Below are positions 23,218-33,895 of a stretch of DNA of 64,000 bases, piece after piece. The stretch comes from Bacillus sp. FJAT-18017 (GTDB lineage: Bacteria > Bacillota > Bacilli > Bacillales > Cytobacillaceae): positions 2,014,001 through 2,078,000 of the forward strand of contig NZ_CP012602.1 in assembly GCF_001278805.1 (NCBI RefSeq), in the 5' to 3' direction. A program made the position numbers and the translations under genes. Under the pieces are notes generated by a model. That model was not told the origin of the DNA. It was given only the letters and a program-made list of their open reading frames with translations, and did no database searches. How positions within the stretch are numbered: position 1 is the stretch's first letter; the number at the start of each line of letters is the position of its first letter.

Positions 23218-23427
23218 GCGGACACCCCTTTAAAAGTTAATCTATCCCAAAAACTTCAACACCCATAGTAAGCCAGAAAAGAATTGCTCTGCTAAATGGT
23301 TTAATGGTAGGATGAAGATAGTCTTGAAAGTTTCAAAAATTGCAATAATCTCCGGTTAGCAAGTTCCGGATTGTCCATTGCTTCTTAGTATGGCCAGCTT
23401 TAAAAATATTATAATTGCGGATGAAAG

Positions 23428-23600
23428 CAAGGGGAGAGACTACACCGTAGCGCCGAAGGAGCAAACAATGAATTTGTGAATCTCTCAGGCAAAAGAACTC
23501 TTGCTGGACGCAGCTCTGGAGAGAGCTTTACATAGTTGAAGCCACCAAAGGGGAAAACCTGCTTTTAGGTAAAACTTTCAGGTGCAAGGACAGAGACCTC
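23428..23600 (+). ncRNA. tandem glycine riboswitch upstream of gcvT
   Basis: Two consecutive aptamers are visible. The first starts GGGAGAGACTACACCGTAGC and includes CGCCGAAGGAGC and CTCTCAGGCAAAAGAAC with the closing CTCTGGAGAGAGC. The second runs from TTGAAGCCACCAAAGGGG through ACTTTCAGGTGCAAGGAC. These are the conserved glycine-sensing blocks. A TATAAT (23410-23415) lies just upstream. Glycine binding is expected to switch on gcvT-PA-PB by preventing the terminator that overlaps its 3' end. Confidence 0.95.
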
Positions 23601-29389: not shown

Positions 29390-29405
29390 ACACAATATAT
29401 AGTGT
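29390..29405 (+). promoter_or_regulatory. NrdR box 1 upstream of nrdJ
   Basis: ACACAATATATAGTGT, a perfect palindromic match to the NrdR consensus. NrdR represses ribonucleotide reductase genes when dATP is high. A TTGACA is at 29362-29367. The 29225-29552 region is otherwise AT-rich and shows no gene or cobalamin riboswitch that I can recognise. Confidence 0.88.
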
Positions 29406-29422: not shown

Positions 29423-29438
29423 GCACTATATGTTGATT
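29423..29438 (+). promoter_or_regulatory. NrdR box 2 (degenerate)
   Basis: GCACTATATGTTGATT, centred 33 bp (about three helical turns) from box 1. Paired boxes on the same helix face are the normal NrdR arrangement. Confidence 0.6.
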
Positions 29439-29552: not shown

Positions 29553-30341
29553 ATGTCTGTTGCGTTAAGGAAAAAACTAAATATTGATTTTGATAGGCTT
29601 AATGAAGATATCCGATTGTTTCCTCAGGTTCATCCTGTCACACCGGATATGCACATTACACACAAAGGGGTATCCCGCCTGGTCATGCTTGACCGGTATA
29701 CATTCAAGGATACCGAAAAAATCACGTTAACCAAAGGTGATTTTGTCGTCCTGACTGTCAAGGAGGATCCTAAGTTCCCTGCCAGGGGTCTTGGCTACAT
29801 TCTCGAGATTGACTGGGAAAAAAAGATCGCCCAGGTACAGGTTGATGAGGAATTCAGGGGCGTACTGGATACACCTGAAGAAGTACAAACAGGAGTGATC
29901 ACCCGTTCCCTTGATGTGATTGAAAAGCCACTTGAGATCTTCTACGAGCAGATCGCCATGAGGAATGCAACAGGCCTTGCACAAGCGGAGAAAACCGAGG
30001 AGAAAAGGCTTGAGTGGTTCAATAAGTTCTACGAAGAGCTTGTGAACATGAACTTTATTCCAGCGGGCCGCGTACTGTATGGGGCTGGAGCAGGAACGGA
30101 TGTAACATTCTTTAACTGCTATGTCATGCCATTTGTCCAGGATTCCCGTGAAGGAATTTCCGACCACCGCAAAAAGGTAATGGAAATCATGAGTCGCGGC
30201 GGAGGGGTAGGAACAAACGGTTCAACACTTCGTCCTCGCGCTGCACTTGCGAGGGGCGTAAACGGTAAATCTTCCGGTTCGGTATCATGGCTGGATGACA
30301 TCGCCAAGCTGACGCATTTGGTTGAGCAGGGCGGGTCCCGT
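29553..30341 (+). CDS. nrdJ: nrdJ exon 1
   Basis: 263 codons: the N-terminal domain through the conserved GGGVGTNGS and ending in HLVEQGGSR. The last base is the T of CGT, which pairs as U-G with the intron guide sequence (TCCCGT with GCGGGA, six pairs). Confidence 0.92.
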
Positions 30342-33300
30342 TAAAACCATGGCGGGATTAAAATCTCGTGAATTGCTGGAACACCCTTAGAGCCTTATCA
30401 ACCACAACGTGACTGGTAACGGTGAGCGTGATGGTTCGAAAATGATAAGGATTGGGCAATCAGCAGCGAAGCATCTCTGGAAACGGAGATGAACGTCCAA
30501 CGACTATTGAAATCATCTAAAGATTCTACTCGAATATTGCCGGAAGGGATGTTAAGGATGGAATCCAAGGTGAAAGTAAACCATAAGCCACGGAGACGGG
30601 CATATGGGGCGCGAGACAAAGAGAGATTAGTTAAAACTATTATAGAACTGCATAATCAAGGATTAAGTCAGGTTGATATCGCAAAAATCATTCATGTAAG
30701 TAGAGGGACGATTTTAAGATGGAATAAAGAAATGAACTTCTTTACTCCTCGAAAGCCAGGAGAAGCGGGAAAGTTAAAATCTAGAACCTATCAATACAAT
30801 GAGAATTATTTCTCGGAAATTAGGAAACCCAATCAAGCATATTTGGTTGGATACATTCTGGGAGACGGAACTTTAATTGATAGAAAAAAATCAAAACGAT
30901 TAGTATTAAGCTTAGCCGAAAATGATAGGCAACTGCTATTTGATATAGCAGCTGAGTTGAATATGACTCCTGTAATCAAGTTTAGAAAAGCCAATAATCC
31001 AAAAGAGCAAAATAAATACTCCTTACCAGTAAACTCGACTCAAATATGTAATGATTTAATCGACTTGGGGATCAGACCCCAAAAAACTGGTTCCGAAAAA
31101 TGGATTAATTTTATGGATAAGCAATTGCAATGGGCTTTTTTAAGAGGATTTTTTGATGCAGATGGTCATATCCGAGTTTACTTCAGAAATGGTTATCTTA
31201 AAACTAGGTTAGGTTTTACTGGTTCTAGAGAAATGATGGAAGCTATATTGAGTTTTATGCAGGAAAATGGAATTGGTAATAATGTGAAATCCATCATTCC
31301 CAAACAAGGCTGTTATGACCTCTACTTCTCAAGTTTGAACGATGTGCGGTTAATCTATGAAAGCCTCTATAATAGTGGAACTTTAAAACTTAATCGAAAA
31401 TATTATAAATTTCTCTCTTTGATGATATAGTCTGGTCTCATATGAAAGTATGAGAGCCTGGCAGAAATGACCAGGCCCGCTTAAAAAGCGGTAACAAATA
31501 AGCGTGGAGCACAGATGATAATGTTGGCGGATTAACAGATGCACTAGTCCGCGTCGTTCAGAAAATGAGCGACCAGAAAATCGGGTGAATTGCGGGGAAA
31601 TCCTTAGAGGCTGGCAAGCTACAACGTGACTGGAAACGGTGAGCGTGAATGCTATAAAAATTGCCATGCATTGGACAATCTGCAGCCAAGCGTCATTGGG
31701 CAAAGGTAATGGCGAAGGTTAAACGACTAGAGAGTGAGTCCCAACAATAAACTCTCATAAGCGCCCGGCCCCTAACAGATAAAGCTGAGGGTGATGATAT
31801 AGTCTAGTCCGGCTGCCATTGCAGCGAAATATTCCGAAAGGAACGGTATATACGTGGCATCCCGATATTATCGAATTCATCATTTCAAAAATGCAGAACC
31901 CTCGTATTCTCAGGTTCCTAATCGAAAATACAACCGATGAATGGATCCAGAAGCAGGCGAAGAACAAACTGAAGTTCACACCGCTTACCTTGCAGGAACA
32001 GGCGATGTACCAGGGAATTATCAATTATAAGCATATCCCGGGCCTTGGAGGATTCAGTGAAGAAATCATAGCAGATGCTGAAGAAAAACTAGAAACTGGC
32101 GGTACATATACCGTCCACAATTCTGAATTTCTGACAGGAGCCAATATTTCCGTCACTCTTACAAAAGAGTTTATGGAAGCTGTTGAAAACGACGGGGAGT
32201 ATGAACTCCGTTTCCCTGCCACTGAAACCTATGACGAAGAAACTATGAAGATTTACAACGAAGAATGGCATAAAGTCGGCGATGTCCGCGAGTGGGAAAA
32301 GATGGGCTATAAAGTCCGTACTTACAGAAAGATTAAAGCAAAAGAGCTTTGGAATTTGATTAACATATGCGCCACTTACTCGGCCGAGCCAGGAATCTTC
32401 TTTATTGATAACGCAAATGACATGACGAACGCCCAAGCATATGGGCAAAAAGTAGTTGCAACCAACCCGTGTGGTGAGCAGCCGCTCGCACCATATTCCG
32501 TATGCAACTTAGCTGCAGTTAACCTTGCAGCAATGGCGGACAAGGAAAACAAAACAGTCAATTTTGAAAAGCTTAAAAAGACAGTTGCTACAGGAGTAAG
32601 AATGCAGGATAACGTTATCGATTCAACACCTTACTTCCTGGAAGAGAACAAAAAGCAGGCGCTTGGCGAACGCCGTGTCGGCCTTGGAGTAATGGGACTG
32701 CACGACTTGCTGATCTACTGCGAAACCGAGTACGGTTCTGAAGAAGGAAACAAGCTAGTTGATAAGGTGTTTGAAACAATTGCCGTCACTGCATATGAAA
32801 CGTCCATTGAACTTGCCAAGGAAAAGGGAAGCTTCCCATTCCTAGTGGGTGAAACTGACGAAGAAACAAATCGTTTAAGGAAAGCTTTCACTGAAACTGG
32901 ATTTATGAAGAAAATGCCTGAAAATGTAAGAACAGCGATTCTTGAAAATGGAATTCGAAATTCTCACTTACTGACTGTTGCACCGACGGGTAAACTCATT
33001 GCCCCCTGCGATCGTAAGGCCGCAGCGTAAACTTGGCTATATGCGGGAAACTCTGGAGTATCTCTTGCTACCGAGGCCTTACCAGCCTGAAACAATGGTA
33101 AAAATGCAAGAGTGTAGGCTTGAATGCCTGCCAGACAATCCGCAGGGAAGTCGTGGCTGACCCCTCAACGACTATACGCCGAGCAACCAAATAGTTTAAA
33201 ATTGGTTGAAGATAGAGTCTGACCCATATTGGCGACATATGGAGCGGGTACTAATAATCCCGCCCTCTACAATGTAGAGAGTAACAAACGTGAGTACCGG

Positions 33301-33895
33301 TACAATGGTCGGAGTTTCCACTGGATTAGAGCCTTACTTCTCGTTCTCGTACTTCCGAAGCGGAAGGCTCGGGAAGTTCATTGAAGTGAAAGCAGATATC
33401 GTTGCTGAGTATTTGGAAAAGCATCCTGAAGCAGATCCGGACAACCTTCCAGGCTTCTTCGTGGCTGCGATGGATCTTGCACCGGAAGCCCATGCAGATG
33501 TTCAGTGTGTTATTCAGCGCTGGATTGACAGCTCAATATCCAAGACGGTTAATGCGCCGAAAGGATACAGTGTAGAGCAGGTCGAAAAAGTGTACGAGCG
33601 CCTTTACAAGGGTGGTGCCAAGGGCGGGACGGTCTATGTTGATGGTTCTCGTGATTCCCAGGTATTGACCCTGAAAGCAGAAGAAAATAAAGTAGATGAC
33701 ACTCTTGAGGGAAAACCAAAGCAAAAGCAGCATGTTGTCCTTGTTGATACAATCAGCGACCTCCGTTCGACAGATGTCACGATCGGTTCTGAAATCGGCA
33801 ACACATGTCCTGTTTGCCGCAAAGGAAAGGTTAAGGAAATAGGCGGCTGCAATACGTGTACAAACTGTAATGCGCAATTAAAGTGTGGTCTATAA
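29553..33895 (+). CDS. nrdJ: NrdJ, adenosylcobalamin-dependent ribonucleotide reductase (four exons split by three group I introns)
   Basis: Class II enzyme reducing ribonucleotides with a B12-derived radical, without oxygen dependence. Joining 29553-30341, 31503-31532, 31855-32991 and 33293-33895 gives 852 codons with no frameshift, the normal size for NrdJ. Landmarks: FFNCYVMPF in exon 1, the radical-site NPCGEQ in exon 3, the TVAPTG|STGTMVG phosphate loop across exons 3-4, and the C-terminal CPVCRKG...CNTCTNC cysteine region. Each intron falls between complete codons in a conserved segment. ATG 29553 follows AAAAGGAGATG. Without splicing all proteins would be truncated, the first at the TAA that begins intron 1. 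Confidence 0.93.
30342..31502 (+). ncRNA. group I intron 1 in nrdJ (1161 nt, with endonuclease gene)
   Basis: Begins TAAAACCATGGCGGG and ends ...ACAAATAAG before exon 2. The guide GCGGGA (30353-30358) pairs with the exon end TCCCGT to form P1. Core elements are in order: P-like AATTGCTGGA (30371-30380), Q-like GGGCAATCAGCAGCGAAGC (about 30454-30472), R-like GTCCAACGACTATTG (30495-30509) and S-like GATGATATAGTCTGG (31421-31435). The endonuclease gene lies between R and S, that is in the P8 loop. A terminal G precedes exon 2. Catalysis is predicted, not shown. Confidence 0.9.
30558..31430 (+). CDS. LAGLIDADG homing endonuclease encoded in intron 1
   Basis: 290 aa from ATG 30558, which has GGAAGGG 9 nt upstream; the frame is open to 30489. 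Residues 36-57 form a helix-turn-helix (LSQVDIAKIIHVSRGTILRWN). Two LAGLIDADG helices follow: AYLVGYILGDGT near residue 100 and WAFLRGFFDADGH near residue 198, each with the catalytic acidic residue. A two-motif protein acts as a monomer. It would cut an intronless nrdJ at the GGSR-RGAQ codons and spread the intron. It is more AT-rich than the exons, fitting a mobile gene. The reading frame is intact. Confidence 0.92.
   Translation: MESKVKVNHKPRRRAYGARDKERLVKTIIELHNQGLSQVDIAKIIHVSRGTILRWNKEMNFFTPRKPGEAGKLKSRTYQYNENYFSEIRKPNQAYLVGYILGDGTLIDRKKSKRLVLSLAENDRQLLFDIAAELNMTPVIKFRKANNPKEQNKYSLPVNSTQICNDLIDLGIRPQKTGSEKWINFMDKQLQWAFLRGFFDADGHIRVYFRNGYLKTRLGFTGSREMMEAILSFMQENGIGNNVKSIIPKQGCYDLYFSSLNDVRLIYESLYNSGTLKLNRKYYKFLSLMI
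31503..31532 (+). CDS. nrdJ: nrdJ exon 2 (30-nt micro-exon)
   Basis: Ten codons encoding RGAQMIMLAD, exactly the residues missing between GGSR (exon 1) and WHPDIIEF (exon 3) in NrdJ proteins. The final GCGGAT pairs with GTCCGC of intron 2. Confidence 0.9.
31533..31854 (+). ncRNA. group I intron 2 in nrdJ (322 nt)
   Basis: Begins TAACAGATGCACTAG and ends GGTATATACG. P1 is GCGGAT with GTCCGC (31548-31553), six pairs with U-G at the splice site. Core: GAATTGCGGGGAAATCC (31587-31603), GGACAATCTGCAGCCAAGC (31673-31691), GGTTAAACGACTAGAG (31717-31732) and GATGATATAGTCTAGTCC (31793-31810). It shares ACAACGTGACTGG and AACGGTGAGCGTGA with intron 1, so the two are related; this one has no open reading frame. 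Confidence 0.9.
31855..32991 (+). CDS. nrdJ: nrdJ exon 3
   Basis: 379 codons from TGG (W of WHPDIIEF) to GGT of VAPTG. Contains TGANIS, the catalytic NPCGEQPLAPYSVCNL block and RRVGLGVMGLHDLL, the core of the alpha/beta barrel. Confidence 0.93.
32992..33292 (+). ncRNA. group I intron 3 in nrdJ (301 nt)
   Basis: Begins AAACTCATTGCCCCC and ends ACAAACGTG. Core: ATATGCGGGAAACTC (about 33038-33053), GACAATCCGCAGGGAAG (33134-33150), CCTCAACGACTATACGCC (33163-33180) and GAAGATAGAGTCTGACC (33208-33224). P1 is shorter than in the other two (GGGT with GCCC, four pairs). It lacks the blocks shared by introns 1 and 2, so it probably arrived separately. No reading frame. Confidence 0.87.
33293..33895 (+). 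CDS. nrdJ: nrdJ exon 4
   Basis: 200 codons plus stop, from STGTMVGVSTGLEP to the Cys-rich C-terminus (CPVCRKGKVKEIGGCNTCTNCNAQLKC). The GTG at 33290 could be mistaken for a start, but it straddles the intron end. Confidence 0.92.
   Translation, partial: STGTMVGVSTGLEPYFSFSYFRSGRLGKFIEVKADIVAEYLEKHPEADPDNLPGFFVAAMDLAPEAHADVQCVIQRWIDSSISKTVNAPKGYSVEQVEKVYERLYKGGAKGGTVYVDGSRDSQVLTLKAEENKVDDTLEGKPKQKQHVVLVDTISDLRSTDVTIGSEIGNTCPVCRKGKVKEIGGCNTCTNCNAQLKCGL

Follow-up and report, generated by a model that had tools for sequence, protein, structure and literature searches.

The nrdJ gene and its introns

The window analysed here is a 64,000-nt stretch of the Bacillus sp. FJAT-18017 genome (contig NZ_CP012602.1, positions 2,014,001 to 2,078,000). 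Positions 29553-33895 of this window contain nrdJ, which encodes a vitamin B12-dependent class II ribonucleotide reductase and is split into four exons by three group I introns, all on the + strand. The exons comprise 263 codons (exon 1, 29553..30341, up to the first junction), 10 codons (exon 2, 31503..31532, 30 nt encoding RGAQMIMLAD), 379 codons (exon 3, 31855..32991) and 200 codons plus a stop (exon 4, 33293..33895). Their sum (789 + 30 + 1137 + 603 nt) is 852 codons and a stop. The introns are 1161 nt (intron 1, 30342..31502), 322 nt (intron 2, 31533..31854) and 301 nt (intron 3, 32992..33292) in length.

The exons are continuous with respect to the protein. Exons 1, 3 and 4 were scanned against NCBIfam PRK08115 (858 positions) and match positions 2-263, 274-652 and 653-858, respectively. 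These matches abut one another except for a gap at positions 264-273, which corresponds exactly to the ten codons of exon 2; this exon was placed by its fit to the gap. Each of the three exons falls below the PRK08115 whole-protein cut-off because they were searched apart, but together, with exon 2 in the gap, they provide a full-length NrdJ match. All three insertions are located between codons, a T precedes each of them and G is the last base of each intron. A preliminary description of this DNA had identified nrdJ, its three group I introns, the 30-nt exon and these boundary bases, and its coordinates and numbers were right.

Intron 3 (site 1953, APTG|STG) and intron 2 (site 816, AD|WHPD), neither of which contains an endonuclease ORF (open reading frame), are both recognized by Rfam RF00028 when the complete window is scanned, with 73.0 and 57.8 bits against a gathering threshold of 50. 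Both have a group I fold with comparative support. For intron 3, 14 ORF-less sequences from the same site (including that of the window) form 82 pairs, 27 of them changed on both sides, with 98.3% of cells paired, and none of 500 shuffles matched any of five measures. For intron 2, 20 sequences form 74 pairs with 99.3% of cells paired and 17 changed on both sides, and the shuffles matched four measures in 0/500 cases and the fifth in 2/500. Slid controls for the two introns paired in 32-45% of cells. Because these structures were partly built from the same alignments, the paired percentages are inflated and the two-sided changes are the better evidence. P3 of intron 3 has such changes. P7 does not covary and is hence uninformative; its last pair in intron 3 is open in 4/14 sequences, including that of the window. 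Intron 2 has a helix at 253-279 after P7 and partial DNA matches to phages. An extra helix in this place and a resemblance to phage IA2 introns are criteria of subgroup IA2, to which intron 2 could belong.

Intron 1 (site 786, GGSR|RGAQ) is split by a 942-nt endonuclease ORF, located inside the P8 loop as placed by eye against ORF-less relatives. The preliminary description had proposed RF00028 as a check on all three introns, and here the check falls short: intron 1 scores 34.4 bits (E-value: 9.8e-7 in a 1.3-kb search) with a separate 3' piece at 21.9 bits, both below gathering. Nine ORF-less relatives from site 786, in which 40/104 predicted pairs have changes on both sides, stand in for intron 1, and the P3/P7 core of the window intron is predicted from these sequences. 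It counts against the assignment that intron 1 as a whole lies under the Rfam threshold and that the covariation set is made up of sequences other than its own.

The introns pair with their exons as expected of group I elements. P1 is formed by TCCCGT/GCGGGA in intron 1, GCGGAT/GTCCGC in intron 2 and GGGT/GCCC in intron 3, with a U.G pair at each 5' splice site. The six, six and four exon pairs agree with those first described, and P1 runs two pairs further into introns 2 and 3. P10 has five, three and three pairs in introns 1, 2 and 3, respectively.

The intron 1 ORF (30489..31430, + strand), which the preliminary description did not mention, has 313 codons from its first ATG, although a start at 30549 or 30558 is likelier because some homologues begin near the motif MES-V-VNH. 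At its 3' end, the ORF runs into the 3' strands of P8 and P7. The encoded protein is predicted to be a LAGLIDADG homing endonuclease: it matches PF14528 (E-value: 9.9e-11), the endonuclease phrog_4645 (E-value: 2.7e-40) and, under the cut-off, PF00961 (E-value: 6.2e-4), and two LAGLIDADG motifs (YLVGYILGDG and LRGFFDADG) can be read directly. The N-terminal part resembles a helix-turn-helix, with matches under their cut-offs. Homologous ORFs were found in introns at the same site in relatives.

Phages are not supported as the direct source of these introns by searches with the DNA of introns 2 and 3 and with the endonuclease protein. None of the phage records reaches 80% coverage of intron 2 (best 48% among the matches listed, 20 of 255 records), intron 3 has four phage matches with 18% coverage, and the endonuclease is less than 60% identical to its phage counterparts in all 144 records.

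It is very likely that nrdJ is a working reductase gene with three self-splicing group I introns that arrived as mobile DNA at three sites. We propose that expression proceeds as follows. The guide of each intron would pair with the end of the 5' exon (P1) and with the start of the 3' exon (P10). Each intron would then excise itself from the transcript, and the exons would be joined into an 852-codon message. Translation of unspliced message would be halted by the in-frame UAA that forms the first codon of introns 1 and 2. Intron 1 appears to keep its mobility gene, the LAGLIDADG endonuclease; introns 2 and 3 have none, and same-site introns of relatives bear HNH-type genes. The continuity of the exons, the group I fold, the covariation between exons and introns and the patchy occurrence are observed, whereas splicing in the cell, activity of the endonuclease and the route and order of arrival are predicted from sequence comparison.

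The host genome is a single 5.27-Mb contig that also encodes nrdE and nrdF, so nrdJ is not the sole reductase gene of this bacterium. Given this second reductase, nrdJ could be dead or dying, with at least one intron that no longer splices and with nrdE and nrdF supplying deoxynucleotides. We regard this as highly improbable. The exons are open and fit PRK08115 from end to end, and introns 2 and 3 have kept P1, P10, P3, P4 and P7. Upstream of the gene is an NrdR-box-like palindrome (29390..29405) that agrees at 15/16 positions with the NrdR-box consensus, with a weaker copy at 29423 (11/16). Because no match to nrdD was found in the host genome, nrdJ may be needed when oxygen is absent.

A fourth group I intron (101.7 bits) is located in a flagellin gene at approximately 4.83 Mb in the same genome; its locus (L001, 1-3367) has a separate ORF at 391-1341 that appears endonuclease-like by eye. 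Elsewhere in the window, positions 23421-23595 match a tandem glycine riboswitch upstream of an apparent glycine-cleavage gene cluster.

Distribution of nrdJ introns among relatives

The uninterrupted NrdJ of Mesobacillus foraminis (L008) was used to survey 151 genomes of the family, 144 of which had a match; the sample takes in all eight genomes of the genus of the window. Counts are based on 143 genes, with one remnant (L184) dropped and one truncated gene (L185) kept as intronless. Junction mapping gave a small bonus to T and G at the boundaries, and a single acceptor (L172 at site 792) lacks the terminal G. A separate named set (the best 80 of 455 loci, picked by exon 3) has introns in 32/80 loci. 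As this set is biased against site 1437, counts are taken from the family sample.

Introns of group I type are found in 81/143 nrdJ genes (42 with one, 31 with two, seven with three and one with four). They occupy seven sites, numbered by the coding nucleotides of L008: 786 (18 genes), 789 (1), 792 (16), 816 (35), 1437 (34), 1947 (5) and 1953 (20). These sites cluster in the motifs SR|R|G|AQ, D|WHP, NPCG|EQ and AP|TG|STG, and all are between codons. The window gene is occupied at 786, 816 and 1953, as is the nrdJ of Neobacillus drentensis NBRC 102427 (L072) in the named set. Within the genus, six of the seven other genomes have nrdJ introns, and three of those six have three. The preliminary description had treated three introns in one reductase, two of them 30 nt apart, as exceptional. 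The survey does not support this: eight of the 143 genes have at least three introns, making this number uncommon without being unique, and the same 30-nt exon lies between introns in 13/143 genes.

RF00028 at its gathering threshold matched 10 of the 13 loci scanned, with introns at 786, 792, 816, 1947 and 1953. Left unmatched in these loci were the 789 intron (L138), the 1437 introns and, in L099, L174 and L178, the 786 introns that contain an ORF. At site 1437, a permissive search (E-value: 0.5) found nothing in L144, L148 and L178, and only 20.2 bits (E-value: 0.39) in L104. Because RF00028 missed them, the assignment of the 1437 and 789 introns to group I type is based only on their P1-like pairing or their position, on the terminal G and on motifs resembling P7. 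The 1437 introns (34 loci) have P1, P10 and a terminal G; many lack an ORF, with lengths of 176-201 nt in four loci and 238-311 nt in others. They are probably a divergent group I type.

Seven intron ORFs of relatives were scanned. LAGLIDADG proteins are encoded at 786 and 789, HNH proteins at 816 and 1953 and a DUF559-type nuclease at 792; at site 1437, one ORF is HNH and one has no Pfam match. Introns at site 786 occur both with and without the ORF, which is present in the window and absent in L105, its nearest relative on the tree. The 786 intron of L167 appears by eye to contain an ORF remnant.

P1 and P10 were read in the mapped introns of five sites, and exon and intron covary. At site 1953, a serine codon AGT after the intron goes with A in the intron and AGC with G in 20/20 carriers, eight of which need a one-base register shift. 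At site 786, base +3 of the 3' exon is T in 15 carriers, where it faces A, and G in three, where it faces U or C (18/18). At site 1437, which is empty in the window, the 5' exon covaries with the guide in 34/34 introns (three of one form and 31 of the other). The exon at site 816 is invariant, with a P10 of three pairs in 28/35 introns, two in five and five in two, and at site 792 P10 has merely two pairs in 10/16. Such agreement is to be expected if the introns must splice. It supports P1 and P10 by comparison of natural genomes and suggests that codon choice within conserved enzyme motifs is limited by the introns. An in-frame stop is first reached at codon 0 in 18/18 introns at 786 and 34/35 at 816, and at codon 12 in 20/20 at 1953; early in-frame stops are viewed as an aid to intron folding in one review (PMC3984707).

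With seven sites, several endonuclease types and 81/143 genes affected, this one housekeeping gene amounts to a natural replicate experiment on the way in which mobile introns select their sites, persist in them and disappear from them. nrdJ in these bacteria may also be mis-called as broken, which is a warning for annotation. The preliminary description had anticipated such errors, and one case was found: the plasmid nrdJ of Rossellomorea CP128836 is listed as a 1473-nt coding sequence (CDS), with the rest unlisted in a gene table stated to be incomplete.

Other insertions were observed in nrdJ genes. L160 and L161 (near CDS nt 1375) and L180 (near 1443) have insertions of 2.6-2.7 kb with reverse-transcriptase-like ORFs of approximately 600 codons, and Rfam scans of L160 and L180 gave group II matches. 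L179 has an additional insertion of approximately 2.6 kb near residue 527. Large plasmids of Rossellomorea, Priestia and Pontibacillus (L186, L187 and L188) have nrdJ genes that matched in two pieces, as if interrupted. Three genomes (G020, G042 and G060) have an extra NrdJ match with 71-72% identity.

Gain, loss and the 30-nt exon

The distribution of introns is patchy and has little phylogenetic signal. On a quick NrdJ tree (48/140 inner branches starred), the fewest changes needed, compared to the shuffled mean, were 16 vs 17.3 at site 786, 13 vs 15.4 at 792, 28 vs 31.7 at 816, 27 vs 30.7 at 1437 and 19 vs 19.1 at 1953. Shuffles as low numbered 35, 3, 6, 6 and 109 of 200, respectively. We tentatively read this pattern as repeated gain from relatives together with some loss. 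An unlikely alternative is that nrdJ was anciently intron-rich and that the patchiness results from frequent precise loss.

The exon flanks bear on this choice. Carriers (counted without L149 and L179) have uniform 5' exon ends: TCCCGT in 18/18 at 786, GCGGAT in 34/34 at 816 and ACGGGT in 20/20 at 1953. At intronless sites, carrier-type ends are found in minorities (2/106 at 786, 9/106 at 792, 7/107 at 816, 8/109 at 1437 and 2/117 at 1953), which speaks against frequent precise loss. Those that do exist, among them the window's own intronless site 1437, are what such loss would leave behind. The most instructive comparison is between L178, which has four introns, and the intronless L227. Their NrdJ proteins are 99.4% identical with the intron sites left out, yet at none of the four sites are the flanks of L227 the same as those of L178, with a single-base difference at 1437 and larger ones at 786, 816 and 1953, contrary to what loss alone would suggest. 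After site 1953, serine is encoded by AGY in 20/20 carriers vs 15/118 non-carriers. As a switch from TCN to AGY needs two base changes, import of flanking DNA is suggested.

Long exon tracts shared around the introns were rejected. In an analysis that left out L185 as well as L149 and L179, the exons of carriers resemble one another more than expected mainly in the 12 nt next to the site. This extra identity extends to 24 nt at two sites (upstream of 1953 and downstream of 1437), and a slight surplus (+0.025; 18/2000 permutations) is seen 24-60 nt upstream of 1437.

Several observations weigh against repeated gain. Weak phylogenetic signal persists at 816, 1437 and 792 (6, 6 and 3 of 200 shuffles). 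Since most of the excess flank identity is found within 12 nt, much of it could reflect pairing constraint, although the TCN to AGY switch is harder to explain in this way. Finally, distances between intron cores track those between hosts at four of the five sites tested, with r of 0.40-0.68 (0.40 at 786, 0.52 at 816 and 0.68 at 1953; at 792, 0.19, p 0.05). Such a correlation is as compatible with old introns that were precisely lost many times as with gains among relatives.

The 30-nt exon between introns 1 and 2 raises a separate question. P10 of intron 1 takes its first five bases and P1 of intron 2 its last six, leaving 19 free. In all 13 genes with this arrangement, each guide fits its own exon at 6/6 positions and the other exon at 3/6 or 2/6, which rules out cross-recognition between the guides. 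In the 11/13 genes that were readable, P3 strands pair at 7/7 positions in cis and at 5/7 across. These non-matching guides argue for independent splicing of introns 1 and 2 and, as far as can be judged from pairing, exon 2 should mostly be included. The preliminary description had proposed that introns so close together force ordered or interfering splicing and may limit reductase output. In one form of this idea, exon 2 might be variably spliced, such that the two introns sometimes remove it and leave a reductase without RGAQMIMLAD, tuning output. The frame would be kept, since 30 nt make up ten whole codons and neither intron interrupts a codon. Skipping has also been reported in Twort orf142, where two IA2 introns flank a 23-nt exon, and for a 34-nt exon in Coxiella 23S rRNA (PMC10136302), and the 786 and 816 introns occur together more often than expected (in 13 of the 18 genes with a 786 intron; Fisher p 6e-6 for 142 genes, without L185). 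Variable splicing is very unlikely in our view. Besides the pairing data, exon 2 lies within a conserved stretch of the protein, and the link between 786 and 816 is only suggestive when corrected for relatedness (median p 0.109). In the work on those short exons, separated splice-site recognition was found to favour exon inclusion, although separating the intron cores alone did not always do so (PMC10136302).

A more far-reaching idea is that the 786 and 816 introns act as a unit, with the pair favoured perhaps through shared action on the 30-nt exon or through joint travel, and with an intron at 792, six bases downstream of 786, nearly excluding one at 816. Sites 792 and 816 are occupied together in 0/16 cases in the family sample (p 0.012), and the pair 816-1947/1953 gives p 0.020; these two and 786-816 are the three below 0.05 among eight pairs Fisher-tested, uncorrected for their number. 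If the idea were true, nrdJ would be a meeting place, throughout the family, of mobile ribozymes that both contend and cooperate for active-site codons and that even dictate the serine codon (AGY over TCN) beside the conserved APTGS motif. We consider it quite unlikely. The tree-based test gives a median p of only 0.125 for 792-816, in addition to the value above for 786-816, and one locus of the named set (L059), outside the family count, has introns at both 792 and 816. The correlation between introns given host distance is 0.44 for 786-816 (p 0.07, n 13), which is not special to this pair because 816-1953 (0.53, p 0.01, n 9) and 816-1437 (0.78, p 0.011, n 5) also correlate. Carriers also share hardly any extra identity 12-24 nt downstream of site 786 (164/2000 permutations as high), which argues against joint transfer in one tract.

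Comparison with known systems

Several introns in one gene for a reductase large subunit have been described in phages: nrdE of Staphylococcus phage Twort has two group I introns, and nrdE of Brochothrix phage A9 has three introns together with an intein-encoded endonuclease (PMC3653736), so three introns in a reductase gene were already on record. nrdJ resembles these genes in having several introns, and the Twort introns are described as being close to conserved residues, with an endonuclease in one of them (PMC3653736). The phage genes are class Ib nrdE whereas the gene of the window is a chromosomal class II nrdJ.

Precedents also exist for so short an exon between tandem group I introns: 23 nt in Twort orf142 and 34 nt in Coxiella 23S rRNA (PMC10136302). 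Skipping was observed in those cases; in nrdJ the guides differ and exon 2 is predicted to be mostly included.

In Bacillus, recA, nrdE, nrdF and flagellin genes contain group I introns (PMC3984707). Like nrdJ, these are protein-coding genes of Bacillus-type chromosomes, and the flagellin gene of the present host has an intron as well. What differs is that seven sites are used in one gene across the family; nrdJ is not among the genes named in that account. By 2009, the curated reductase entries of RNRdb contained more than 100 group I introns (PMC2795772); the genes are not specified there and some may be nrdJ. Among the records listed in searches of the open literature, no title or start of an abstract deals with group I introns in chromosomal nrdJ, which is weak evidence given that subscription journals lay mostly outside the scope of the search. 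The nrdJ introns are a known kind of element, and short exons between group I introns have already been published; the wider pattern among relatives is more interesting than the gene of the window itself.

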